In this document: positions 6,701 to 50,446 of the stretch, in pieces | Numbering within the stretch: the stretch's first letter is position 1 | How the letters are laid out: each line of letters opens with the position of its first letter | Assembly (NCBI GenBank): GCA_963402885.1 | Contig: OY727101.1 | Location: 20,064,417-20,128,416, forward strand | Reading direction: 5' to 3' | From: Antedon bifida | Taxonomy: Eukaryota; Echinodermata; Crinoidea; Comatulida; Antedonidae | DNA: 64,000 bases | Notes under the pieces: model-generated | The model's database searches: none | Seen by the model: the letters and a program-made list of their open reading frames with translations, nothing else | What the model was told of the DNA's origin: nothing | Made by a program: the position numbers and the translations under genes

Positions 6701-9700
6701 TAGCATATAAAACTTGTGAGGGTGTCAGAGGGTAAGATTAAGAGGCTCAGATGGCCTGGGCAGATGGGAAAGATTGATTGAGGGTTCGTCTATCAATAGT
6801 GTCAACAACCAATCCTCACTGGCTATCTACATTTCCAAGTGGTTAGTTCCTGTCCCTAGCTACTCTTTATTCACTTTCCTATACCCCACATCCTTAATAT
6901 CACTGTTTCCTCATCATCATGGAATGTTCCCTTTTAAAAAATAATCCCCTCCCAGTACATGCATATTTAGGACCGTTCCTTAAATATGAATGTACTGGTA
7001 AGGAGGGAGAAAATAGAAAAAGAGAATTTACAAAACTTTAACAGAAAAAATGTACACAGAGTTGAAATTTGAGAGAGAATAATAAATTGTATGTAATTTT
7101 CTCCATTTCTGTATGTTCCTTTCGACTTTTTGCAATAAGTACCTCAAGGATATTATTTGTAGACTTTTCAAGAAAATAATGTGAAAAAATGATGGTGATA
7201 AGTTTATGTTCTTAACAGATTGGTTGGCCGTAATATGGGACAGGGTTGGTCAGGGTTCATGTGCAAATTACAGTTAACGTGTGTAATGACCATGTTATGA
7301 CTAATACTTTCACTTCTAAAGTTGTTACTGGTTCAACTCCTACAGTATGTAAAACATAGTTAGACACAAAGTCACTAAAGTCAATAACATTTAATTTACT
7401 TCCTTAATCATGTTTAATTTCCAGGAATTTACTGGAAAAACCCACAATAAGGTTAATTATAATGCTGAGGATGGCGACGGGTATCACTGAAATATTCGTC
7501 AACAAATTTGTGTTGTTGACCAGGTTTACCCTTCCTGATGAACAATAATGTAGGTTTTCTAGCTTTATGACTTCAACATGTACTTCAGATGAGAATGTAC
7601 TGTACTGTAGCGAACTCTCCCAATACCGGACACCATTAGGCTAGGCTAATATGTTTGGTTTACAGAAATTTTGGGATACCAAATGTGTTTATTTTTTATG
7701 GTACAAACAAATTTTTGGCCTTTTGGCCATCAAGAAGTTTTCCGGTTTTAGATAGTCCAGTATTGAGAGTCAAGTACTATGGTAACCAATTACAAATGCC
7801 CAATTTAAAAACATTGTTGTATTTTGGTATCAATTTTGCACAAAATTATGCTTTGAGGGCAAAATATAGTCAAAAACAGGACCTAGAATAATGTTCAATG
7901 ACATGACTCTGTGACTTTCCATGACATGAACATTAAAAACAAATGCTGTGAATTTGTAACTTTATTAATTTAATTAAAAACTCTGTTTCTACAGAAGGGT
8001 ATGTAATTGAAGATGTTACTGTTATATATTTTCAGTTGACATACACCAGGTAGAGGTGCATATCTGTTGGAACATGACAACATGTTTGTGTGCATCTCTT
8101 AAATTTCACTTCCATTTTCTACAGGTTTATAATATAAGATTACCAATATCATCAGTTTAATGTACTTTTGATAGAAGTTTTGCCAATAAAGCACCCAGAG
8201 AAGACAATTAAACTTATCAAGAGAGGAAACAAACTTGATGAATCCAGGTTAAATGTCATTTCATTCTGTTCTTTCTTTCTTTTGACACGTTCAAGTCATT
8301 CTACAGACCAAAACATGTGTTTTCCTGAGAGGTCTGGAAAGTGCCACAACTTTGATTTATAACTACTAACATCTGATTTAGAAATCTTCACAAATCATTT
8401 GTTGGTTTCTTTCAAAATATCTCCTAAAAATAAACTTATGGAAAAAAGGTCATCTTCTTTATTGAAGATAAATTGCATATTGACTTATTCTAAGGTAAAT
8501 GTATAAATTGAATGAATCAGGTTCATGAAATGAGGACAAAATCATGTCAGTTAAGATCACTGGGGTACAGGCTTGTCTTACCTACTGTAGGCCCTATAAA
8601 TTGTTACAAACTGAGGTGTCATCGATCAGGTAGACATGTTATAAACATTCTTTTCTGTATCAGAGTTAAATATGTGTTCAAACAGTGCATTAATGTACTC
8701 TCATGTTAATTGATCACACAAGTACTATACATCGTAAACTCTAAAAACAATTCATAACAGCTTTGTTATGTATGCATTGTAGGTAATTTAGCTGCTAATA
8801 ACCGGTTAACTGGGTTTCAATTAATTAGGCGTTGTTGTTAACCTTTAACACAACTTAAACCAGTTATTTGAAATGGGTTTAGTTTCTGCTGCTTCCCAGG
8901 TAAATTACTAGCACACTATTTATCCAGTTATTTCCTTGAAAATGAAACAATCAACTTAAGAGCGTAAAAAAAATCTAAAAAAATATTGAAATATTTATGA
9001 GTAAAAATAGGATATATTGAATCCCCAAGTGAAGTACAACCCTGATTAGAAGAAAATAAACCATCTTGGTAACCCTTGTGTAATAAATTATATAGTTTAT
9101 TGGAATTTTAATATTGAAGTTTCAGGTTTAAAAAACATAAATCACTGAGAAAGTTGTTTATGTTACATAAGCTTGGTTGGGTCTGTCTCTGTTGAATAAA
9201 ACAAGAAATATTTCTTACAAAAAAAAAACACTTGACTTTTTGAGGGAACAGTAAAAAGTATAAAGGCCAAATAAAAAAAGTTAGTTTCATGTACGAGATG
9301 ATGGGTTTTACTAAATTGTTAGGTATCAACGCTAGAATGATTTTTGCAATTAATCAAGAACTTTGATGGAACATTTTGAATGATTAATCTAAAAAAACTT
9401 ATTTATGACCATTTAATAAAAATTGAAATAGTTATAAGTAGTTAAATAACTCATTTGGCTCCAACATTTGAAAAGGTCTTTAAAAATATACAGAAAAAAA
9501 ATGTACAAATAGAACTAGAAAAGATATAGGTTATTTTTATTGAACAAATCAATATTTCACAATTTCAAAAGATGGAACAAAACCAGAAGATATATGGGAG
9601 GCATTACACTTGTTGAAATGACTATAACAAGGAGAGATATCAACTTACATCCAAAAGTGACCTGTGTTTGCCTACCTATAAAAAACATTGCTAGTTAACT

Positions 9701-21700: not shown

Positions 21701-23815
21701 TAAATCAAAATATCTAATAAAATATAGCCATGTAAGAATGAAAATTACATAATAGATATCTATTTTCATTTACAGTTAAATGTACTTTTATTTATAGTAG
21801 AAAAATAAAAAAGAATCTGGCGTTTTTTAGTTACGTGAGCTAATTTTAAAGATCAACCTTTTTAAAGAAAATTTAAATTTGGTCCTAAAAGTGGTCTTAA
21901 ATTGGAGGAATAACTGAAATACAAATCACTATGTATACTCTATAACACCATGGAGGACAAAATATTAATTTTTTCCTCCATGATAACACTAAACATTGCT
22001 ATGTTCCACAACGAACCATTTATGTTCTATGTAAATACTAATCCCTCAATATTTTAATCTATGCTTAATCATGCGTGACCAAGAATGCTCCCCTTAGAGT
22101 TTTGGATCTGTTGCATGTTATTATACCACACACAGAATTATTTTTCAATGGTTACACACATGAAAAAGCAGTTATTTTATAGTGTAATCATTTTCAAAGC
22201 TTGAATTCAACACAATTGAATATTATCTTTATGAATATTAGGCCACTGTCCAATTTTTCTATTCTTTGAATATTAACCTAGCTTTAAAGTTGTTATGCAT
22301 TTGCATCCATATTAGGTCATGGATATGAATTTGTCATTAATACCTTAAATATATCACATTATTTCTATATTATTTATTTCTATTATATAAAATACATTAG
22401 ACTTTTTGTCAAGTTTTTAAAAATAATAATTAATAACAAAATTGATGTTTTGCTTGATACTATACTATACTTAAATGTGAACACTGTCTCTCTTTTTAAG
22501 AAACTGTTAACTGCTAATTTCATATAGCTTTATTTAAATGTAGTGTATTATTTAATTTTATAGTTAGTAAGAGTATCCTTGTTTAATTTTTTTTCATTGT
22601 AATTGTTTTATTATCTGTTTTGATAGTAATTAAGGTCTTTCTACATTTATTTTTGTTGGTGTTTTCCTTTGAGCATGGTCTTACTGAAAAACAACTTTCA
22701 GTTGAGTTAAGTATCCGTGATTAAATAAAGCTTATTATTATTATTTGTTAATTTATTAGTTTAAAATTGAGTGTACACTTAATTACTTTAATGATGGGAA
22801 TGCATTATTGCATTTTATATAACACCTATAAATTCCTGTAATTTGATTGGACGATTGCTGGTCCCATGGCATGCAATAGTACATACTATTTAACGATAAT
22901 ACTTTTTTTTCCATGAAGAAATCTTTTCTCATGTACGAAAAAATGAAATTCAATTGCAGCATAGTCTGTTGTTCTGCGAACGGAAACGACGACGCACACT
23001 ACATGGGATGACCTCTCCTTCAAAAGTCAGTGAAAATAGAATTTCCTCTTTCACCTTATGAAATTATTTGTACCATCGCACTTACAAATTCATTATATGT
23101 ATATACTTACTAAGACTTCATAGTCATGAGACTTGAGATGTGTTCCAATTTCCGCACCAGCAGAAAAGCACTGTAAAACAATTTTTAGAAAAAGAATTAT
23201 TACAAAACATCGGCATAAAATCTACTTACATTCTAATGAAAAAAATCAAAGGCAGAGCCTTTTATTTATGCAGAAGGTGCAGAACACAACACAACACAAA
23301 TTCAATGAACAGTAAACAATTATTTAAAGACCTGAGCAAACCCACTGACCCATAACAAATCACTGGCACACCAGGGTCACTCCCAATTATAAAAAAAAAA
23401 ACATGTGCATCCAAAAATATAAATACTGTACTAAGCCTACTACCTATCGCATCCATTGTATTAAATCCGACCAGGCTATTATCCACACAAAAGCACAGAT
23501 TGGTTCTTTGCAGGCCTGGACAAAAGATAACAGAAGGGGATTCCTGACCTAGCTAGCTACACGTACGTACTGCACTTCCTTCTATGTAAATGAAGGTTAC
23601 AACTTGCCTGTAAACAAAGATCGAAATCAGCTTCGGAACATTCGATGCATTTCACTCTCACGCCTTTCAGCTCTTCTTGACAATAATTACAGTAAAACTT
23701 GGTCGAAGGTTCTGAAATAAAGTAAACATACATTTATTCACAGTTATTGTACGTTAGCTAGAAACACAGAAAAATGGATTTAAATACAAAGGTACAAAGA
23801 CAACCTACCGGCCAT
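722..23815 (-). CDS. TADA2B: TADA2B (transcriptional adapter 2-beta), 14 exons visible, C-terminus outside window
   Basis: ADA2b-type adaptor of the SAGA histone acetyltransferase module, which positions GCN5/PCAF on nucleosomes in the nucleus. Exons on the minus strand, high to low: 23809-23815, 23608-23711, 23111-23170, 20412-20506, 20082-20173, 19822-19878, 19382-19485, 18961-19033, 18522-18641, 18043-18168, 17564-17635, 17225-17333, 3506-3540, 722-795. All phases join cleanly to 376 codons; the human protein is about 420 residues. Residues ~7-57 form a ZZ zinc finger (YCNYC, KCIEC, DLCLQCF, H-x3-H). A SANT domain follows (~69-118, YEDWSSQEEM, NWEGIASNIG), then the ADA2 signatures PLSPSL, EEQQQLGFMPLRDDF, AHVDMYTKLLKERQRRK and RYRRNGITKLE. 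Exon 14 is the linker into the SWIRM domain (FNYLSEREKK). The start ATG has only seven coding bases before a GTAGGT donor. Intron 2 uses a GC donor and intron 12 is 13.7 kb. The family call is firm; the 35-nt exon 3506-3540 is the least certain. Confidence 0.94.
796..3505. other. TADA2B intron 13
   Basis: AT-rich intron of about 2.7 kb between the SWIRM-linker exon and the 35-nt exon. No ORF longer than about 72 codons resembles a protein, and no RNA gene was recognised. Confidence 0.6.
3690..3780. repeat. Dispersed 'GGGGACAC' short repeat, degraded copy
   Basis: Shares the AACTAAGGGGACTC-like core and a GTTTCTACTATA end with copies 1 and 2, but is more diverged. Confidence 0.45.
5896..6320 (+). 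repeat. SINE-like element with tRNA-like head
   Basis: Begins with GAGTGGCCGAGTGGTTAAAA, which resembles a tRNA gene A box. A body follows with TACTTTAAAGAACCTGGTGG and GGACAGATGGGAGAGTACCA. The boundaries are approximate, and no clear target duplication was seen. Confidence 0.45.
7612..7775. repeat. Small inverted-repeat element (CTCCCAATACCGG ends)
   Basis: The left end carries CTCTCCCAATACCGGACA; the right end carries CCAGTATTGAGAGTC, which is its imperfect inverse complement. Related ends bound the element at 11366-11660, so this is a family of about 160-300 bp non-autonomous elements. Confidence 0.5.
10064..10165 (-). repeat. tRNA-derived SINE head
   Basis: On the minus strand it reads GATGTAGCTTGGTGGTTTAA (A-box-like), then about 30 bases later GGGTTCAATCCTGACC (B-box-like). 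It resembles the head of the SINE at 32285-32527, so the two are probably one family. A functional tRNA is unlikely because acceptor-stem pairing is absent. Confidence 0.5.
10785..10862. repeat. Partial copy of the palindromic GCTCTGTCTACAC MITE
   Basis: Shares CCCAAATATGGTAGTGATAT, CCATATATGGGCACATCA and the terminal GCAGACAGAGC with the intact copy at 40814-40929. The left terminus is lost. Confidence 0.6.
11366..11660. repeat. Inverted-repeat element enclosing an internal CTCTACCAATACCGGA minisatellite
   Basis: Units of about 17 bp (ACTCTACCAATACCGG or ACTCTACCAATATCAA) repeat in tandem from about 11376 to 11515. The far end carries GTGTCTGGTATTGGGAGAA, the inverse complement of the unit. 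The terminal repeat of a small element therefore appears to have been amplified at one end. Overlapping reading frames here are repeat artefacts. Confidence 0.65.
14382..14475. repeat. Tandem repeat, 20-bp unit, about five copies
   Basis: The unit TGAAAAATAAAATGGTTGGT is repeated with small changes. It is intronic. Confidence 0.85.
14583..14632. repeat. Tandem repeat, about 16-bp unit, three copies
   Basis: The unit AAAGGCGTGTCTCCCC is repeated three times, the middle copy with a G to A change. It is intronic. Confidence 0.8.
20507..23110. other. TADA2B intron 3 (2.6 kb)
   Basis: Very AT-rich intron between the ZZ finger exons and the SANT exons. No gene, structured RNA or clear repeat was recognised. 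Confidence 0.6.
23607..23608 (-). other. GC-AG splice donor of TADA2B intron 2 (zero-length marker before 23607)
   Basis: On the minus strand, exon 2 ends CAG and the intron begins GCAAGT at 23607-23602, a strong match to the known GC-AG donor consensus. The frame and homology across the junction (DLCLQ joined to CFSAG) fix the boundary. No GT donor nearby would keep the frame. Confidence 0.85.
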
Positions 23816-23900
23816 TTTCGCCGTCCGTCGAAGATGACCCTTGACATTAGTGATGATGTCATGAGCTCCCACAATGCATAAGTCATTGCAATCAACAAAC
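23816..23900. promoter_or_regulatory. Remnant of the TADA2B/MED17 divergent promoter
   Basis: These 85 bp separate the TADA2B start codon from the left end of the inserted element. Only about 7 bp lie between the other end of the element and the MED17 start codon. Without the insertion and its duplicated target, the two start codons would have been about 85 bp apart, head to head. No TATA box is evident. The promoter role is inferred from gene arrangement. Confidence 0.5.
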
Positions 23901-24010
23901 GAGGTATATTCAGAGCGTCATTCTGGCGACTGGAGCATCCTCTACTTCTCTACGGAGCGCCATTTATGCCTTTATTAACTTCAGTAATAGAAATTGTACT
24001 ACGGTAACTG

Positions 24011-24733
24011 CTCAAGTGGACCCAATTTAGCACCAGGGTAGCACAGTGATATAAAATAGAAATAAAGTCACTAAATTTTAATATCTTTTCGTATGTTAAT
24101 ACACTGTGCTCAAGTAAACCCAATATGGCGCCAGTGGAGCACAGTGATATAACATAGAAATAAAGTCATTTAAGTTTCAATATCTTTTCGTATGTTAATA
24201 CACTGTGCTCAAGTGGACCCAATTTGGCGCCAGTGGAGCACAGTGATATAAAATAGAAATAAAGTAATTTAAGTTTCAATATCCTTTCGTGTGTTAATAC
24301 ACTGTGCTCAAGTGGACACAATTTGGCGCCAGTGGAGCACAGTGATATAAAATAGAAATAAAGTCATTTAAGTTTCAATATCTTTTCGTATGTTAATACA
24401 CTGTGCTCAAGTGGACCCAATTTGGCGCCAGTGGAGCACAGTGATATAAAATAGAAATAAAGTAATTTAAGTTTCAATATCTTTTCGTATGTTAATACAC
24501 CGTGCTCAAGTGGACCTAATTTGAAGTCACTTGAGTTTAAATATCTTTTCGTATGTTAATATACTGTGCTCAAGTGGAGCACAGTGACGTAAACTAGAAA
24601 TAAGTCACTGAATGTTAATATCTTTTCGTATGTTAATAAGTGGACCCAATTAAGTTTCAATATATTTTCGTATGTTAATACACTGTGCTCCAGTGGATCC
24701 AATTTGGCACCAGTGGTGGAGCACAGCGAAATA
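24011..24733. repeat. 98-bp tandem array inside the left arm of the fold-back element
   Basis: About five full units and several truncated ones. Each begins near CTCAAGTGGACCCAATTTGG, passes through GGAGCACAGTGATATAAAAT and ends TTTTCGTATGTTAATACACT. Unit starts at 24011, 24109 and 24208 show a 98-99 bp period. The later units carry internal deletions. Confidence 0.95.
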
Positions 24734-26049
24734 GTCACATACAAAAACATCGAGAACTAGAATTTAATTCGTCACTTTGACGAATTTTAGGTGATCATTT
24801 TTATAATTTTACTGATATTTAATTTTTAAAAAACATGCACGTATGTTAAATATTACTGCAAAATATTGATTTATGCAATCCTGTGACCTGATATTATGCT
24901 TATGGTGCTGATTGGTGCCTATTATGTGTCATAGAATATATGCTCTATACTTACAGTGTACTGTATATCTATATACAGTGTAACATAGGTGAAATTACGG
25001 GGCCCATCATGTTTGAATTTTGAAAAATACTTCTGAAAATACTTCAAAAATATTTCAAACTTCCAGGTATATATGTTAAATATCGGTACTCTATAAAAAT
25101 TAGTTTCAAGCCATATCAGTTATTTTAATAGCTTGCGTTTGTCTAAGATAAACACTTATTTAGTGTCCCCGGAGAGTGCACCTATTCATAGAAATATGAA
25201 ATTAAATATTAAGTCTCCAGTACTAGCTCACCATGGTTGTGGCAGAGGTAATAATAATGAAAATAGAGCCCAGAATTGCACTTATACTTATTACTATACA
25301 TAATCACCTATGATAATTATGGTAATGTTAAAATTTCAACTATCCAGATGCGACTTCAAAGTTGTAGGTGTGGTTTTTTACTTCAAAACACGACTTCGTA
25401 TAAGGCCTAGTCCGGCGGCGGAATTAGTCTACTTCGAAATTGGTCTAGAAATCGGCATCTTTGGAAATGTTCTATATTTGATCTTATTTCACTCTCCATT
25501 AGCCCCACAAAAACCATCGGAGACAAACTATCTGTTTAAAACATGTTTATTCTGGGGACTGTGCGGCCATACACACCAACTACCATCAAAGTTTATTCAT
25601 GACTAACAATACCATCTTTCCCACCAAACCGTTTCGTACACCTGCGATGAAAATATAAATTCAATTTCTTTTAAAATTGAGGGCGGCAAACCTAAAATTT
25701 ACGAGATCGAATACGGGTTGAAAAAAAAAAATTAAATAAAAAAAAAGATGTTAAATGTGCTCTCCCTGCCTCAGCACTAAGGCCCTGCCACAGCCTTTTG
25801 GGGTCGTTTCCAGCACATCACCAGATGCATTGATGTTGTCGCCTCATGATGTGTGGTGGAAAGGGGGACGTATAATTCTGTGAACCCCAAACACAGTGGC
25901 CGCATGCCTTTAACTCTATTCCACCGACCAGCGACTGAGCTAACTGATCATTTTGGTATTAACAAGATTAATATGATAGTTATGACGTACTGATGAATTA
26001 CGTAATACACGTATAAATAGACTATTATCAGCTGTTCAGTCATGTACTA

Positions 26050-26170
26050 CTTTGTGGCCTAACGGGTAATGCTCAGGTTTAGGTGCTCTCAGCTCTAGTA
26101 GATTGGGTTCGAACCTCTACGGATATTTTTTTTTTAAATAAAAAAAAATAAATAAAAAATAAATAAATAA
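26050..26170 (+). repeat. tRNA-derived SINE inside the fold-back element
   Basis: TGGCCTAACGGGTAATGCTC (A-box-like) is followed by GGGTTCGAACCTC (B box) and then T- and A-rich simple sequence. This is the organisation of a tRNA-derived SINE with an A-rich tail. Confidence 0.6.
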
Positions 26171-26299
26171 ATAAAATAATGAATATTGTTTTTCTTTTAT
26201 TTTAAAAGAGAGATATTTTGAGGGTTGTAAATGTCAGGTCTAACACAAACCTTTTTTAAAATCAGAAACAAAGTTGCATGGCATTATTTTCCATTAAAT

Positions 26300-26425
26300 A
26301 GACTACCATAAAACCCGAAAAGAAGCCCATGTGCTCCTTCATTTTTGGTACTCTTGGGTGGGCTTCTTTTCCAAATGAAGTTCTTTTCAAGATTACTTTT
26401 GCAAACTAAAAGAGGGGAGCTGATA
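26300..26425. repeat. AAGAAGCCC-type small repeat, diverged copy
   Basis: Shares AAAACCCGAAAAGAAGCCCA, GGGCTTCTTTTC and AAGATTACTTTTGCAAACTA with the intronic XPO5 copy at 37316-37443. Its ends are worn. Confidence 0.55.
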
Positions 26426-26659
26426 GGTTCCCAGCCGGAAAATGTTTTATTTACATGATTTGAACAATCTTCTAATGTAAAAATTAACAACATCAACATT
26501 TTAACTTTTTTACTCTGCTAAAGGAAACACAAAGGATATTAGGAGGACTGAGGACGATCAAAGCATATTGATCGAAACGTCAAGAAACTCAACAGTTCTT
26601 TTCAGAACTAATATACATGGTGTACCGCAAACTGTATATCAACAAAGGATTTTTTTTTC

Positions 26660-26892
26660 TTAAATTTATTAAAATGTATTGACTTTATTTCTATATACCA
26701 CTGTGCTCCCTGGTGGCAAATTGGGTTCAGTTGAGCACACAGTGTATGAACATACAAAATATATTAAAATTCAGTGACTGGACCAGTTACCGTAGTACTA
26801 TTTCTATTTCTGAAGTAAATAAAGGCATAAATGGCGCTCCGTAGAGAAGTAGAGAATGCTCCATCGTCAGAATGACGCTCTGAATATACCTC
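26660..26892. repeat. Right inverted arm of the fold-back element
   Basis: The inverse complement aligns with 23901-24200: a shared unique end of about 110 bp (CTCTACTTCTCTACGGAGCG, CCATTTATGCCTTTATT) and then about one and a half of the 98-bp units. The arm ends 8 bp before the MED17 start codon, so at least part of the MED17 5' leader is probably transposon-derived. Confidence 0.9.
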
Positions 26893-26899
26893 AACAAAC

Positions 26900-29800
26900 A
26901 TGGCGGCTCACTCGGTGCAAGTGAGTGTCGAATCTTTGTTAGAAAATCAAGTTCAAGAAGTTGCTCTAGATGGACAAGAGACGTATAACAAGTAGGAATA
27001 TTTTCAATGAATTAAAAAATGTTGAATTCTCAATTGTCTACTAAGTGTATCTAGCTAATAGATAAGTAAGAGAGAGGCTAGGCCCGGCGCCAGCCATAAC
27101 TTCTTGTTCAATGCATCAAACACTACCGCCTTCCCCTGGCTTGATGGGCCTGCTGCCTGCCGCATATGCAAGATTCGGTTAATGGTACATATGGCCTACG
27201 TTTGTTTAGGAATATATTTGTTTTGAATAATGCAAGCACTACCAGCTGTCATAAATAAAAGCTCACATTACATTTTTTTTCCAGGCCTTTGTCTATGTCT
27301 GAAAACTTGGCAAAGTTGGCCCACAAAATTGACTTTGATAAAGTTGAAGAAGAAGAGAAAAAAGAGGAGGAAGATAATGCCGATGGAACCACATCTTTTC
27401 AACATCCTCAGTGGCCATGGGAAAGTGTTAGAAATAAACTTAGGTAAGGAGAGTTAACTTAAATTTGAAATATCGATTTTACAGTAATACAAATTATCTA
27501 TATTATATAGTATTAATAATATTATTAATTACTGATTTTTATGGAGATTTGTTTTTGTTAGTTTACACTTTTTTAATTTATAAGCCTAATTGATTTTTAG
27601 CACTCTCTTTGTAGAAATCAAAATCTCATAATACAGAATTATGATAAACTATTTGTAGAGTTCGTAAATTCTAAAAACTATAGAGCATCACCAACGGAAT
27701 CAATCGCAAAAATGATACAAACAAACGGGACAAACTTGGTTGAGAAAAACAAAATATAACTTTAATCCTGATTATCTTGCTCTTAACATGCATACAAAAT
27801 CGCTGTCACTTCGTATCGAGAGGGATTCACTAAGTTTTGTGGCTCAATAGAAAACTTTACGAATCTACAATTTCTAAATAATATCTTTAACAAACTTGAA
27901 ACTAAAGGGCAAGGCACAACCACGTTGCATACATGAAGGCCGCCATGATACTTCTCCCAGAAAACCAGCCTAGCGCCCTCAATAGCTCAGTTCAATGGGA
28001 ACGCTATACTATTTATATTATTTTTATACATTGTTAATTGCATGCAATTTGTCTTTTGTGCAATATTTTGTATGTCACGTTTTATATTGAGAATAATAAA
28101 AAGAAATAATACTATGCCTATTTTACTGTTTTTCACTTAGGACTGCATTCACAGAGATTTGTGTATTGTCTGATATACTCCACATTGGCCAAGAAAAGAA
28201 GTATCTAGTATTTGATCCAGTCAACCAAGAAGCTCCTCCTCATAGACAAGTTCTTAAATTAGTTACAAAGAAAAAAGTAAGCATCGATGGAGTTGATAGA
28301 GCATTATTTCACAAAAAGGGGGTCCGAGAAATTACTATACTCCAATGGTGAACCCCAATGAACCATAGCAAATCCCAATCTTATAATGAACCATAGGGTC
28401 GGACAAATTACTAATGAATCACAGCAAACCCCAATAATGAACCATCCATAGTGAACCTCAATGAACCAAGGTCAGACAAATTACCATAATGGACCACAAC
28501 GAACCTTGGACTTAACCCAATTAAAAAAACATTCACCCGTTGCACAGCTGTGGTGCCGAGTGACCGTGTCTTTAGCCCATCGATCCTCAATGGTTCCCTC
28601 TCCATATATTCACTGTGGTTCACTCATTGTACAAGGGAAACGGAATGAATTAAATAAGTTTACCTTTTTGTAGAGTTTAGCAACTGTAGCCGATATTTTG
28701 CTGAAGGGTGCTAAGATGCTAAGTAAGCCTCCATCTGAAGCAAATGTACCAGATTTCCATGTGGAACTCCTGAAACTCTGTCAGCACTGGCGGTTAAAGA
28801 AAGTTGGAAACAGTATACTGGGTGATCTTAGCTTCAAGTCCGGTGAGAAACCCTTCGATGGGCATAATAATTATTCCTTAAATAACTTTAAAAAGAAATC
28901 TATGTTGCTAAAGCATCAATTAAAACAGGGTCAGTGTTTTTAGCTGATTTTGTGTTAAATATCTTACTAAGAAACTGCTGGGCCTAAATAAAAATTAGAG
29001 GATGCTATAGAAAATTTACTTATGCATGCAAACAAATTTTGGTTTGGCCATCATAACATATTTTATTTTAGGCCTCTCTCTCCAAGTTATTTTGAACATG
29101 TTTAGATGATGTTTCACCTGGATTTGTGCAGTTTTTTCTTTTTATTTTCTTTTATCTTTTGTAGCTGGTTCAAGATTTTGGCATAGTGGTGTATTTGAAG
29201 TAATAAAAACATCAGATATCGACACGCAAGATGCCGCTGCAGTTGGTATGAATAAACGATCACTCCAAGTTGTGGTACCTACTGATCTTGAGGGAACCAG
29301 TTATATACAAGTTATAATACAAACAGGTTTGTTATTTAGAATAAATTTAAATGTATACCAAACATGTAAAGCTGTGCTTCCACCCAGCTCATTGTCTCAC
29401 TGAAAAAATAATTTAAAAACTTGTTGTTGAATAAACCATATCCTCTAAGCTAAATCATCCTTTTGTTCATTTTCATTTCTATGGAAGGGAAAAATGTTAT
29501 TAAAACAAAAAAATGGCCTATTCAAGTTATTTTTAATGTATTGGAGGAAAATACATTTTTAATCAACAACTTATTCAAGAATCTACTATTGTATTTCATT
29601 GGCTATTTTTTATTGTTTGTAGGTGATGCAGACATAGCCTCAACTGTTGTCTCTCAGATGAGTCGTACCAAAGTATCAGCTAATGCTCATTGGCAGGAGA
29701 GACTGGAAGCAGCCCAGAATGTGCTATTCTGTAAAGAGCTCTTCTCTCAGGTATGTAGTCAGATCTTTTAATACAGGTAGCATTTTGGCAGCTGAGCTGA

Positions 29801-35517: not shown

Positions 35518-38500
35518 ATGTGCGCTTTACATCTGGATAGTACTGTCCAGAAGCTCATACATAGTGTAAACATTACAATGGATCCATCTGCTTCACAGCA
35601 ACAGCGTACAGAAGCTTATCATGTAAGTTTTGTGTAGGCCTACTAAACTATACATATCACTCCAGGGTCGGTAGCTAAAAATCCCGCGTATAGGAAGCTA
35701 GTTTGGAGAGATAACACGTATTATTTGTAGGCCTAGAGAGTGGGATTTCCCAGTTTGTGTGGTTTTTTTTATAAACTAGGTTTCAACTTATTACCAAAAT
35801 GAGTTGGGTGATTCGCATAAATGCAGATGCCAGTTTACGTCCTAGCTAGGCTAGGCCTAAATGTTATTGTTTAAAAAATATAATAATGTGTGAAAACATG
35901 ATGTTATTGTTTAAAAAAATAGAAAAGTGAAAAGTGAAAATGCATTTAGCTTTTGTTTTACTTAACTTTTGACAAATAATATATGGTTTTTCTTTCAGTT
36001 TTGTGAGGAATTTAAAGAAAATTCGCCGTTGTGTGTTGAGTGTGGTATGGTGCTTGCCAAGACGGTCTACCCTCCAATCATAAGACATTTTGGACTGCAA
36101 ATTCTAGAACATTGTGCCAAGTAAGTCACATTGTCATGGTCCTGTTTTTTCTGGGGTAGAGAGGGGGTTTAATATATATCTTATTTATTTATTTATTTGT
36201 TCTTTATACTGGGTGACCTCTTCAGTAAAAAAAAATGTTCTCCCAGAGGGCACAGACAAGACAAGGCAAGTTAAAGTACCACACCAACATTTTGAATTTT
36301 TTTCCTCCTAGATTTCGATGGTTAGATATGAACCCACAACAGAAGGGGATTTTCAAAGAAGCTACGATTTCTCTCATTCAAACTGTAAGTTTAAAATATT
36401 TTTCTTTTTTACCAATCACATTTAAATGTAATCAATTTAACGATACTAGCTGATACTATTGTGATATTGTATGTTTTGTGTTTTTTTAGGGTGTTAAAGA
36501 CATTTTATCAGAAGAGATATTTATTAAAGATGGTCTTTCAAGGATCATGGTTGAAATGATAAAGAAGGAATGGCCACAGCGATGGGAAAGCATGCTAACT
36601 GAACTTGATCCTCTTGCAAAAAGTGGAGTAGGTACACTTACCAGAAGATCTCTATATACCTCGGCTGCGCCTTGTTCGATAGAGCAGTCAATATTCTCTC
36701 TATTAAATGAATATACATTCAAAATATGTTGTTATGCCTAAGCCTGAATATGACATAGTTTGGTTTACATTTTCATTTTTTAGGGAACACAGTGTGAACT
36801 GGTGCTTCTAATTTTGTTGCGTTTAGTCGAAGACGTCGTTGCTTTTCAAAATTTTGATCAAAAACGTCGTAAGGACATTGTGACCGGGTTAAACCAAAAT
36901 ATGAAGGAATTGTTAGAGTTTATTTATGGAATGCTAAAAGTGCACTGGGAAATGTATAAACAAGCTGTAAGTAGTCTTATATTTATCTTTCTAGTTGGAA
37001 CTTCTAATATTATTAGAGGTTTCAACTTTAAATAGTCTTTGTTAATAGTATTGTATATTTTTGCATTATTTTCTGTAGAGGAACTCATCAAGTCAGCTTT
37101 CCTGCTGTAGTGCAGCTGTTAAAACTCCCTGCTTTCCCTGAAATAAAGTTTAATGAATAATTAAGTTTTAATTGTTGTTTCAGAAAGCAAATACCAGTGC
37201 AAACAGCCCTGAGGTAAGTTGCCATGAAAGAATAGATGCTACTGCTGTTTACAAAATTGTCCATCACTGATTAAAAGCATCTTATTATATATGCTATAGT
37301 TTATACCATATATACAGTAAAATCTTGAAAACTGGGCTCTCCTTTTTTCGAAAAGAAGCCCCCCTCTGTGGTTTGCAAAAGTAATCTTGGAAAGAAGCCC
37401 ATCTCGAAATCGAGCAATGGGCTTCTTTTCGAGGTTTTACAGTATTGTGTTTAGGATTAGTTTAAAAATTAAAATACCCCTGTTTTCATTCATATCATCC
37501 GAATATAGCTCGCCACTTAACCTTTAACCTTGCAGATGAAAGTAGCATGCAAACTCACAAATGCTACTCTAGAAACTATTGCTGCGTTTGCGGAATGGGT
37601 CACGCTTCCAATGGTTTTCTTGAACGATGGCTATCTCTCGCAGACTTTGTATGAACTCGTAATGGAAATAGAGTTGAGAAATAACGCAGCTGAAATTTTA
37701 AGTATTATTTTTAATAGAAAGGTGAGTAATATGATGAATTTATTAAATTATTGTGATTTATAATTGCAATTATATTTTGTATTTGTAATAATTAAAGGGA
37801 CCATGACAAAAAGATTCTGCTGCAGTAACCATGCAATCACTGCAGCAATTCATATTTTCCACAGAACGTTGATCTCTCATCATTCTTCATTCAAGTCCGA
37901 ACTTATAAACCGGTTAAAGAGTAAAGAAAATGTATTTTACTGCAGTAGAATAATTTTGACCTGGTGTCTAATAACCTTGAAAAGGTTACAAAAAACTGCT
38001 TTTCACGATATTTTGGTATTTTGGGTAATTTGGCAGCTTTTGGAGATAAAAGAAAAATATTAATGATCCATCAATTTAAATATAATTTTGAAAATAATTA
38101 ATTCAGGAAGTTTAAATTCTTTATTTTCTTAGGATCGAGACAAACAGCCTTTAGATTTTATGTTCAGTAAAGCTGCTATGATTGCTATCCTAAGTGCAGC
38201 CCAGTAAGTGCATCAAGTTAAATCTTGTCTTTGTTTGGGCATGTCTGCCACAAGCTTTTTGCTTTTTTGAACATGCCTTCTTCATTCATATTACCTTTCT
38301 TTACACAATTTTGTATACTGTTTATTTGAAGAAAATAAATGTTACTTTGAATTGAATTGAATTGAATTGAAGTTCATTCTTTTATTACTTATTGGCAAAA
38401 TTTAAAAATAAATACATAATACCATAATATGCCTACTGTATAATAAAATCAAAGAATATATGTAAAGATAGAGCAATCTGCTATTTTTCCATTGAAGATT

Positions 38501-48574: not shown

Positions 48575-50446
48575 CTATGTTATTAGGTGTTTACATACAT
48601 TTTGTTTTATATGTTCATTGCACAAAACAGGCGTAGAATACGGGAAACACTGGGTTAGTGCCTTCGTCAGGTCTGGATCCTGATTGCTTCCAATTTTAAA
48701 ATCCAAACTCTGTATATCTTCTTGATCTTCCATTAATATTCCGCTGAGATGGGAAAACAAAGTGTGGAAAGTTGCATAGTCAAAATCCCAATGCAAAAAC
48801 ATAGGTCCCAATACTAAACTATGTTCACCAGATGCAGAAGTGTAATTCTTATACACAGTAGCTGTTACGTAACTTGGCCCAATATCAAATGGCCTATCGA
48901 CCACTACAATGTCAAATCCATAATCTGTTTTTACGCTAAATTTCTGCTTAAAATTAACCAACTGTGTGTCACTGTGTAGTATTACAATTGGATGTTTCCT
49001 TTTTCTCTGAATGATTCCTTGCACTAATTCTTCATTTTCAAGCATTAACAAAACCTTCATTGGAACTACTTTATTCTTCCGCACCACGTTATATTCTTTT
49101 ATAATATTGTAAACTTGTGGGAAATTTCTTGGTGTAGCTATTTCATTCTGTTCAGCCATACCTTGGTAACTTTGTATTGGTGTTTGCATGCCATTCTGTT
49201 CTGCCATACTTTGGTAACTTCGTTTTGGTGTTTCAATCTGTTCTGCCATACATTGATAACTTCGGTTTGGTGTTTCAATTTCATTGTGTTCCACTACATC
49301 TTGATAACTTCGTGTTGGTGTTTCAATTTCATTCTGTTCTGCCATACATTGATAACTTCGTGTTGGTGTATCAATTTCATTGTGTTCTGCCATACCTTGG
49401 TAACTTCGTTTTGGTGTTTCAATTTCATTGTGTTCCACTACATCTTGATAACTTCGTTTTGGTGTTTCAATTTCATTCTGTTCCACTACATCTTGATAAC
49501 TTCGTTTTGGTGTTTCAATTTCATTCTGTTCCACTACATCTTGATAACTTCGTGTTGGTGTTTCAATTTCATTCTGTTCTGCCATACCTTGATAACTTCG
49601 TTTTAGTGTTTCAATTTCATTGTGTTCCACTACATCTTGATAACTTCGTTTTAGTGTATCAATTTCATTGTGTTCCACTACATCTTGATAACTTCGTTTT
49701 GGTGTTTCAATTTCATTCTGTTCCACTACATCTTGATAACTTCGTTTTGGTGCTTTACTTACTACGATTTGATTGTTTTGTTCGGATTGTACGAATGATA
49801 TACCTATATCTTGATCAATGTGTTCCAGTGTTTCAATTTCTACCGTTTCTAAACTTTTTGGTTGTTTTGTTTCTACGTTTTTTGAATTACCATGAGCAAC
49901 GCGGTTATTACTATAGAATCCGCGATATTCAATGAGGGCTACATCTGTTAGTTTGTTGTTTTCGTACAACGTTGTTACACGTTTTCTGTAGTTCGTATCA
50001 GGAGCTTTGAGATGTGTGTAGTATCTTCTCATTTTGATAACTTTCCCTGGTTGCGGTACTAAAGGATGCCACAAAGACACTTTCTTTATTCTGCTTTCAA
50101 TACAATAAAGATTGTCCTTCAAATAAACAGAACTTAGTTTGCCATTTGAGTTCACAATGAAATAATTTGTAACTGCTTTTTCCTTTTTAGAGTCCCAAAC
50201 TCCACAGTCATCTGGGAAAAATTGTCGTTGACAGCAGTGTTTCTTTCCTGCATTGCGTGTGTTATCTACAAGATAAACACTGTTCTTGGGACCACATGGG
50301 ATATGTTGATGAATGAACAAGTCTTTTGATGTTAAATGTTTATACGTTTCTGTAACGGGCAAAAATGATCCTGTCGTGTGTATCTTTGATAAACAAGACA
50401 TGGATGTCATCACTTCCGACTGTTGTTCTCCCGATAGCAACACCAT
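48575..50446 (-). CDS. MULE-transposase-derived gene with 13 x 16-residue repeats
   Basis: Single long uninterrupted frame of 623 residues from the ATG at 50446. Residues ~40-190 resemble the N-terminal domain found in invertebrate MULE-related proteins (VYLVDNT, FFPDDCGVW, YYTHLKA). Residues ~230-437 are 13 tandem copies of ETPKRSYQDVVEQNEI with variants. The C-terminal ~180 residues match the first part of a MULE transposase core (VVVDRPFDIGPSYVTATVY, LGPMFLHWDFDYATF, LCNEHIKQNV). The GTDGE-type segment of active elements reads GSNQDPDLTKAL here. The frame stops just after CNEHIKQN, before the third catalytic residue and any zinc finger, so transposition activity is unlikely. A splice acceptor (TTTGCAG) abuts the ATG. 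A possible 5' exon ending ATGTAC with donor GTAAGT lies at 51485-51490. It is convergent with XPO5. The gene could be domesticated or a recent partial copy. Confidence 0.75.
   Translation of the reverse strand: MVLLSGEQQSEVMTSMSCLSKIHTTGSFLPVTETYKHLTSKDLFIHQHIPCGPKNSVYLVDNTRNAGKKHCCQRQFFPDDCGVWDSKKEKAVTNYFIVNSNGKLSSVYLKDNLYCIESRIKKVSLWHPLVPQPGKVIKMRRYYTHLKAPDTNYRKRVTTLYENNKLTDVALIEYRGFYSNNRVAHGNSKNVETKQPKSLETVEIETLEHIDQDIGISFVQSEQNNQIVVSKAPKRSYQDVVEQNEIETPKRSYQDVVEHNEIDTLKRSYQDVVEHNEIETLKRSYQGMAEQNEIETPTRSYQDVVEQNEIETPKRSYQDVVEQNEIETPKRSYQDVVEHNEIETPKRSYQGMAEHNEIDTPTRSYQCMAEQNEIETPTRSYQDVVEHNEIETPNRSYQCMAEQIETPKRSYQSMAEQNGMQTPIQSYQGMAEQNEIATPRNFPQVYNIIKEYNVVRKNKVVPMKVLLMLENEELVQGIIQRKRKHPIVILHSDTQLVNFKQKFSVKTDYGFDIVVVDRPFDIGPSYVTATVYKNYTSASGEHSLVLGPMFLHWDFDYATFHTLFSHLSGILMEDQEDIQSLDFKIGSNQDPDLTKALTQCFPYSTPVLCNEHIKQNVCKHLIT
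49138..49755 (-). repeat. 48-bp coding minisatellite, 13 units
   Basis: The unit codes for E-T-P-K-R-S-Y-Q-D-V-V-E-Q-N-E-I. Position variants alternate between DVVE and GMAE/CMAE, and between Q and H before NEI. One unit lacks two codons. No unit breaks the frame. A long frame on the opposite strand over the same stretch is a mirror of the repeat. Confidence 0.95.

Follow-up and report, generated by a model that had tools for sequence, protein, structure and literature searches.

A proposed foldback-like DNA transposon between TADA2B and MED17 in Antedon bifida and a bias of its sampled relatives to gene starts

Results

The TADA2B/MED17 locus contains a 2,992-bp element

The window analyzed here is a 64,000-nucleotide stretch of the Antedon bifida genome (C14:20064417-20128416; the assembly comprises 315.6 Mb in 27 contigs). 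It contains two head-to-head co-activator genes, TADA2B on the minus strand and MED17 on the plus strand. Pfam scans were run on single ORFs and on the joined exons of these host genes. TADA2B (23608-23815) was followed through the coding part of exon 1 (23809-23815, with the ATG at 23815) and exon 2 (23608-23711), and the joined exons, whose junctions were placed by eye, match ZZ_ADA2 with an E value of 8.8e-21. MED17 exon 1 occupies 26900-26991, its junction also being placed by eye, and the joined MED17 exons match the PDB MED17 chains with an E value of 1.1e-52, query residue 4 aligning with chain residue 5. By eye, TADA2B exon 2 ends at an apparent GC-AG intron donor (CAG/GCAAGT, minus strand, ~23602-23610). 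Farther along the window, Exportin-5-like exons were seen by eye at ~36000-37720 on the plus strand, and a 48-bp tandem repeat of 13.1 copies fills 49129-49752; its unit is divisible by three and is possibly coding.

Between the two genes lies a transposon of 2,992 bp (23901-26892), which has inverted ends and AACAAAC on either side. The end sequence GAGGTATATTCAGAGCGTCA is located at 23901 on the plus strand and at 26892 on the minus strand, with no other match in the window at up to three mismatches and a mean of 0.00 matches for 100 shuffled versions. The AACAAAC repeats are exact at both borders (23894-23900 and 26893-26899, plus strand), as an earlier note on this DNA had reported, and the right one is the sole native remnant immediately 5′ of MED17. 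The left end lies 85 bp from the TADA2B ATG, also as reported, and this native spacer includes one AACAAAC. When the element is subtracted, the ATGs of the two head-to-head genes are 85 bp apart, in agreement with the predicted ~85 bp. The right end was placed 8 bp before the MED17 ATG (26900); we measured 7 nt.

Within the element, a left terminal inverted arm (type A, 23901-24008, plus strand) is followed by a tandem array (24009-24733, plus strand) with 5.2 regular copies to 24523 and degenerate copies on to ~24733. The repeat unit is 99 bp rather than the 98 bp first given. The array is confined to the left; on the right, a single minus-strand unit (~26682-26779) precedes the right terminal inverted arm (type B, 26786-26892, minus strand), which is the same as the type-B majority of the family. 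The description of the 3-kb segment as having mirror-image ends therefore holds for the arms and not for the ends as a whole. The arms themselves, said to be identical at the two genes, differ at 6 of 108 aligned columns (five substitutions and one gap; ~94% alike). The interior (24734-26681) is non-coding and contains one internal module, which is tandemly repeated in most other copies read, and the Pfam scan of three ORFs from it gave nothing significant. A part of the interior (26295-26421) resembles a repeat at 37357-37453 in the window (81-84% over 43-54 bp), and 26589-26635 weakly matches the Rfam model of the histone 3′ stem-loop (20 bits against a gathering score of 34, E 0.04).

The element belongs to a family of about 200 insertions

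A genome-wide search with the 20-base end, as the earlier note had suggested, gave 407 matches at up to two mismatches (208 + 199), while the reversed control gave 0; the arms are thus present elsewhere, and the number of ends corresponds to ~200 insertions. These 407 ends, together with the 7-bp duplications, bear out the proposed transposon insertion and exclude a local inverted duplication in its place. Twenty loci were fetched, and 17 of them, with inverted arm pairs 2.5-7.6 kb apart, were used. The other three hold copies that were omitted for want of a full arm pair, namely two back-to-back arms 5 bp apart (L012), an incomplete arm (L014) and a single arm (L022). Exact 7-bp duplications flank 26 of the 43 paired copies (10/18 including the window copy, 14/20 and 2/5) and show no strong consensus; the remaining 17 have offset, partial or no repeats where an exact adjacent duplication would lie.

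In all 18 copies compared, one arm is of type A and the other of type B, indicating that the difference between the left and right arms was inherited and not acquired at this locus. Since both types are common to the whole family, a local event as the source of the arm similarity is excluded, and the divergence of the arms was dropped as an insertion clock. The two arms of the window copy contain no private substitutions among the 18 copies, and its right part contains 10 at 1,268 sites (11 of the 18 copies compared, range among those 11: 3 to 12). By this measure, the window copy is young, like its relatives.

Several features of other copies were also noticed. The duplications at L010, L018, L020 and L026 are displaced by 2-7 extra bases, perhaps through end variation or a second event. 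At L019, a partial arm (8556-8622) lies 25 bp beyond the right end, as though another copy started there. The 7.3-kb copy at L013 contains frames of 435 and 332 aa (~1264-2568 and a minus-strand frame) that by eye resemble a nested LINE reverse transcriptase. On contig C1 (33.2 Mb), 24 ends are listed, of which 13 fall within its first 4.6 Mb and another 10 within its last 1.3 Mb, which suggests crowding at contig ends, the lists being possibly incomplete for any contig.

The insertion separates candidate activator sites from MED17

The 78 bp of native spacer retained by TADA2B (23816-23893) contain a CRE/bZIP-like sequence, TGATGTCA (23854-23861), and a ZNF143-like sequence, TCCCACAATGCAT (23867-23879, plus strand), both by the generally known definitions of these motifs. 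The ZNF143-like site is the sole exact match in the window, against 0.025 expected, and with one mismatch allowed there are two matches against 1.08 expected; it was picked after the sequence had been viewed, as was the TISU motif considered below. In the empty site, the ZNF143-like and CRE-like sites would be 21 and 39 bases from the MED17 ATG, and with the element they are 3,020 bases and ~3.0 kb away, respectively. None of 74 flanks, taken from 37 further copies, contains the exact ZNF143-like motif, which is therefore no general mark of the targets.

At MED17, a TISU/YY1-like sequence, AAACATGGCGGC (26896-26907, plus strand), extends across the start codon and agrees at 11 of 12 positions with SAASATGGCGGC, which we take to be the TISU consensus. 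The sequence ANATGGCGGC has its sole occurrence in the window at this start, where 0.04 occurrences were expected. The functions of TISU and ZNF143 are known from mammals. In human genes, TISU is located no farther than +30 from the start site, and the median leader is 12 nt if its ATG is used, according to an excerpt of PMC2518114; also in human, the motif group discussed together with ZNF143 is enriched in bidirectional promoters, according to an excerpt of PMC11118474. MED17 resembles the human TISU genes in its 11/12 match and would share the logic of a short leader (excerpt of PMC2518114) if the motif acts in this animal as it does in human genes. Unlike in those genes, the remaining start region at MED17 would be provided by a transposon end.

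Three ATGs precede the MED17 ATG within the right arm, at −69 (26831), −44 (26856) and −28 (26872), and the frame of the one at −44 extends beyond the MED17 start. The native spacer also contains ATGs on the MED17 strand, so upstream ATGs by themselves are no proof of a short leader. Those of the right arm argue against long leaders that traverse it and favor a start within the final 27 nt, because a leader without an upstream ATG must begin in these bases, which comprise 20 nt of the transposon end and the 7-nt duplication.

We consider it fairly probable that a non-autonomous foldback-like transposon recently entered the 85-bp promoter shared by TADA2B and MED17, 7 nt 5′ of the MED17 ATG. 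The ZNF143-like and CRE-like sites, as putative activator sites, would have remained with TADA2B, while MED17 would have kept just the TISU/YY1-like start. Transcription of MED17 would then begin within 27 nt of its ATG, probably either in the terminal 20 bases of the transposon or in the duplication; the TISU-like motif would direct this start, the leader would be very short, and the wider arms would be passive sequence and no captured promoter. That the insertion split a bidirectional promoter appears well supported by the target-site duplication, in this one genome.

The absence of private substitutions from both arms and their small number in the right part would also fit an insertion that the sequenced animal carries as a rare or heterozygous allele, in which case most MED17 expression would come from the empty haplotype and no adaptation would have taken place; we regard this explanation as somewhat unlikely. 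The proposal that the arms are working promoters, with the same inverted transposon sequence serving as the core promoter of both genes, is unlikely. It would be in keeping with the position of one arm immediately 5′ of MED17 and with the arms of other copies, which lie tens of bases from gene-start-like motifs or frames and are thus at least tolerated there. However, the right arm carries the three upstream ATGs, TADA2B retains 78 bp of its native spacer, MED17 has an intact TISU-like start, and the arms are unlike at six columns.

The family is biased to gene starts in the copies sampled

We compared the landing sites of three sets of copies. Set 1 consists of 17 copies selected by similarity to the left arm of the window copy, and sets 2 and 3 of 20 copies and 20 ends among the at least 100 exact ends listed of the 407, so that older ends are absent from them. 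At 8-120 bp from the element, the CpG observed/expected ratio of 94 flanks is 1.05, against a null of 0.60 (sd 0.06, maximum 0.84 in 2,000 draws). When 72 flanks were compared with their own sequence at 500-1000 bp, the ratio was 1.03 against 0.63 (maximum 0.83). With distance, it decreases from 1.06 (8-60 bp, 94 flanks) through 0.99, 0.75, 0.68 and 0.65 to 0.64 (500-1000 bp, 74 flanks), which can be compared with 0.64 in a regional control 30 kb upstream of set 2 and 0.58 in the window. The rise adjoins the element in each of the three sets and is confined to ~120-200 bp of the site.

The reading frames near the copies point in the same direction. The stop-to-stop frames considered were 55 aa or longer and lay no more than 1 kb from one of 37 copies; 125 read away from the element and 103 toward it. 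A Pfam scan at E 0.001 found 14 families among the away frames and two, a kinase and Flavi_M, among the toward frames. The traced away frames comprise FAA hydrolase, Forkhead, HSP70, Ocnus, PQ-loop and CBM20 above the Pfam cut-off, and WD40, CAP, C12orf66-like and Extensin below it; the kinase of the toward frames is below it as well. WD40 and TEP1 are one frame among the 14 away families, Extensin is of low complexity, and CSN7, Hus1 and CCDC24 (all away) were counted without tracing, while the untraced Flavi_M match is probably a chance match. Counted as frames, the difference is 13 away versus 2 toward (p 0.007), or 11 versus 1 (p 0.006) with the doubtful ones removed.

The start-codon motif AANATGGCG occurs eight times reading away and never toward, four of these within 60 bp of the element. 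It is not rarer in the controls (3 in 20.2 kb versus 8 in 83.8 kb of flanks), the shorter ATGGCG is found 11 times away and 8 times toward, and TISU-like matches in the controls number 7 in 20.2 kb, 5 of them in one locus. The evidence from start motifs is strand bias only and is weaker than that from CpG and Pfam.

Single copies illustrate the pattern. At L020, the left frame matches U5-40K/SNRNP40 (E 3e-21, chain residues 45-100), where the higher-ranking rows are designed WD40 repeat proteins with one repeat matched many times, and the right frame is KICS2-like (E 7e-4, below Pfam's cut-off). Judged from these matches, the element at L020 separates SNRNP40-like and KICS2-like frames that each read away from it, and is a second apparent case of a split head-to-head pair. 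At L027, the ATG of a DEAH-helicase-like frame is 39 bp from the element. At L034, a STRAP-like start read by eye had no match in the PDB.

We conclude that the sampled copies of the family tend to lie at gene starts. This bias might reflect selection, gene density or the choice of copies with intact ends in place of a transposase preference, given that surviving copies alone are visible and that set 1 was chosen by similarity to the window copy and sets 2 and 3 from the list of exact ends. We consider this quite unlikely, as the CpG ratio is raised only close to the sites in all three sets, with the controls upstream of set 2 at the regional value, and selection is not expected to spare copies tens of bases from start codons. 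With a family that favors gene starts, landing at TADA2B/MED17 would be typical.

A conserved tRNA-headed unit lies inside the element

The internal module contains a tRNA-Val-like gene, and the majority of the 17 other copies have it in repeated form, as tandem modules of ~1.75-1.87 kb. ARAGORN found 36 tRNA-Val genes in these copies, 1-4 per copy, with the anticodons GAC (30), AAC (4) and TAC (2), and 26 of the 36 are identical. They contain A and B boxes, and the Rfam tRNA model gave eight matches of 48.5-50.8 bits in three loci searched. In the window copy, the gene (25924-25950, minus strand) is truncated by a 48-bp deletion that takes out the anticodon arm and the B box, and by the covariance model, ARAGORN and the boxes it does not qualify as a tRNA gene; it is intact in the 17 other copies read.

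The tRNA heads a conserved block. In 42 module matches, the 250 bp that begin with the tRNA have a diversity of 0.0060, versus 0.0368 elsewhere, and with one match per sequence (21) it is 0.0051 versus 0.0360, with 0.019 in the lowest other 250-bp window. This ~250-nt unit is hence about six times less variable than the remaining module. The block terminates at T9 and T10 runs, the T9 run at its end in the window copy (25738-25746, minus strand) being a candidate Pol III terminator. These features fit a transcribed Pol III unit under constraint, with gene conversion as an alternative.

Genome-wide, the 31-base tRNA head was found 452 times at up to three mismatches, and the reversed control 0 times. 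The heads were compared by eye with the transposon ends on C1, C7, C8 and C9 (to 30.76 Mb), using lists of at least 100 exact matches for each, and 36 of the 37 listed heads are within 10 kb of a listed end; the exception is C1:2762618, with no listed end nearby. We rejected a dispersed SINE, since the sole matches in the fetched DNA that lie beyond the listed elements are those at L012, L014 and L022, where the copies lacking a full arm pair are located. The unit resembles tRNA-derived SINEs in having a tRNA head with A and B boxes, a body and then T runs, and it differs from them in being tied to a DNA transposon, as the proximity of heads to ends indicates.

Discussion

The family, its ends, the 7-bp duplications, the little private divergence and the bias to gene starts in the sampled copies are established here, and the wider finding is a family that is biased to gene starts and carries conserved tRNA-headed units. 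At the locus itself, the transcription of MED17 from a distant upstream exon or start, with the element spliced out or read through, is very unlikely, as the protein homology starts at the ATG (26900) and no clear splice acceptor was seen by eye immediately before it.

We propose that the element is a non-autonomous foldback-like DNA transposon. The 407 inverted ends and the exact duplications are those of a cut-and-paste DNA transposon. Foldback elements are defined by long inverted arms with tandem repeats in them; here, inverted arms of ~108 bp are present in 18 of 18 copies, and the window copy has the array on the left only and one unit on the right. Galileo, a Drosophila element of the P superfamily, has foldback-like, long and internally repetitive inverted ends and 7-bp duplications, according to an excerpt of PMC2775673, and it is like our element in both respects. 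Galileo has its own duplication consensus, GTAGTAC, whereas the 26 exact duplications here are without a strong one; the internal tRNA-headed modules and the one-sided array are features of the element described here. A link to the P superfamily was sought through transposases and end sequences, and neither provided one. P-type transposase matches number 18 in the genome, and none of the nine on C1, C7, C8 and C9 (to 30.76 Mb) was seen by eye within 600 kb of a listed end (at least 100 exact ends of the 407). At one P locus (5.5 kb), the similarity to the arms is at chance level (best E 0.23), and inverted ends of at least 12 bp are absent.

The Mutator superfamily was rejected by duplication length, which is 8-11 bp in that superfamily versus 7 bp here. 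Sea urchins also have foldback elements, presumably those named TU. Tetris, a foldback element of Drosophila virilis placed in Mutator, shares with our element the inverted ends with tandem repeats, and its complete copies are without a conserved ORF, in the excerpted text of PMC4079207, which also names a sea urchin foldback. The repeats of Tetris are ~220 bp long and its duplications, according to that excerpt, 8-10 bp, unlike the one-sided 99-bp repeats and 7-bp duplications found here.

The locus offers a natural experiment on the minimal DNA for an essential promoter, with 7 native bases left 5′ of the MED17 ATG and the candidate activator sites, formerly close by, now 3 kb off. A literature search for bidirectional promoters with a transposon insertion found nothing. 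With ~200 insertions, the gene-start bias in the sampled copies and two head-to-head cases, the cost of insertion and its rescue could be measured in one genome.

To our knowledge, it is unusual for each copy of a DNA transposon to carry 1-4 conserved units headed by a tRNA, and a search of titles and the first parts of abstracts found, among the papers listed, no tRNA units of the same kind in DNA transposons, which is no proof of their absence. Speculatively, the family may both seek transcription starts and carry its own conserved Pol III unit, whose RNA or bound TFIIIC/Pol III would serve the element, perhaps by keeping it at open promoters or in a favorable part of the nucleus, with the inverted end having become the transcription start of MED17, an essential Pol II co-activator gene; we think this extension is improbable but offer it tentatively. 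A single tRNA head present 452 times could also lead the automated annotation of tRNA genes astray. At C1:1267123-1275876, six tRNA heads ~1.75 kb apart lie beside one end, suggesting that the arrays can exceed the 1-4 modules seen in the copies read.
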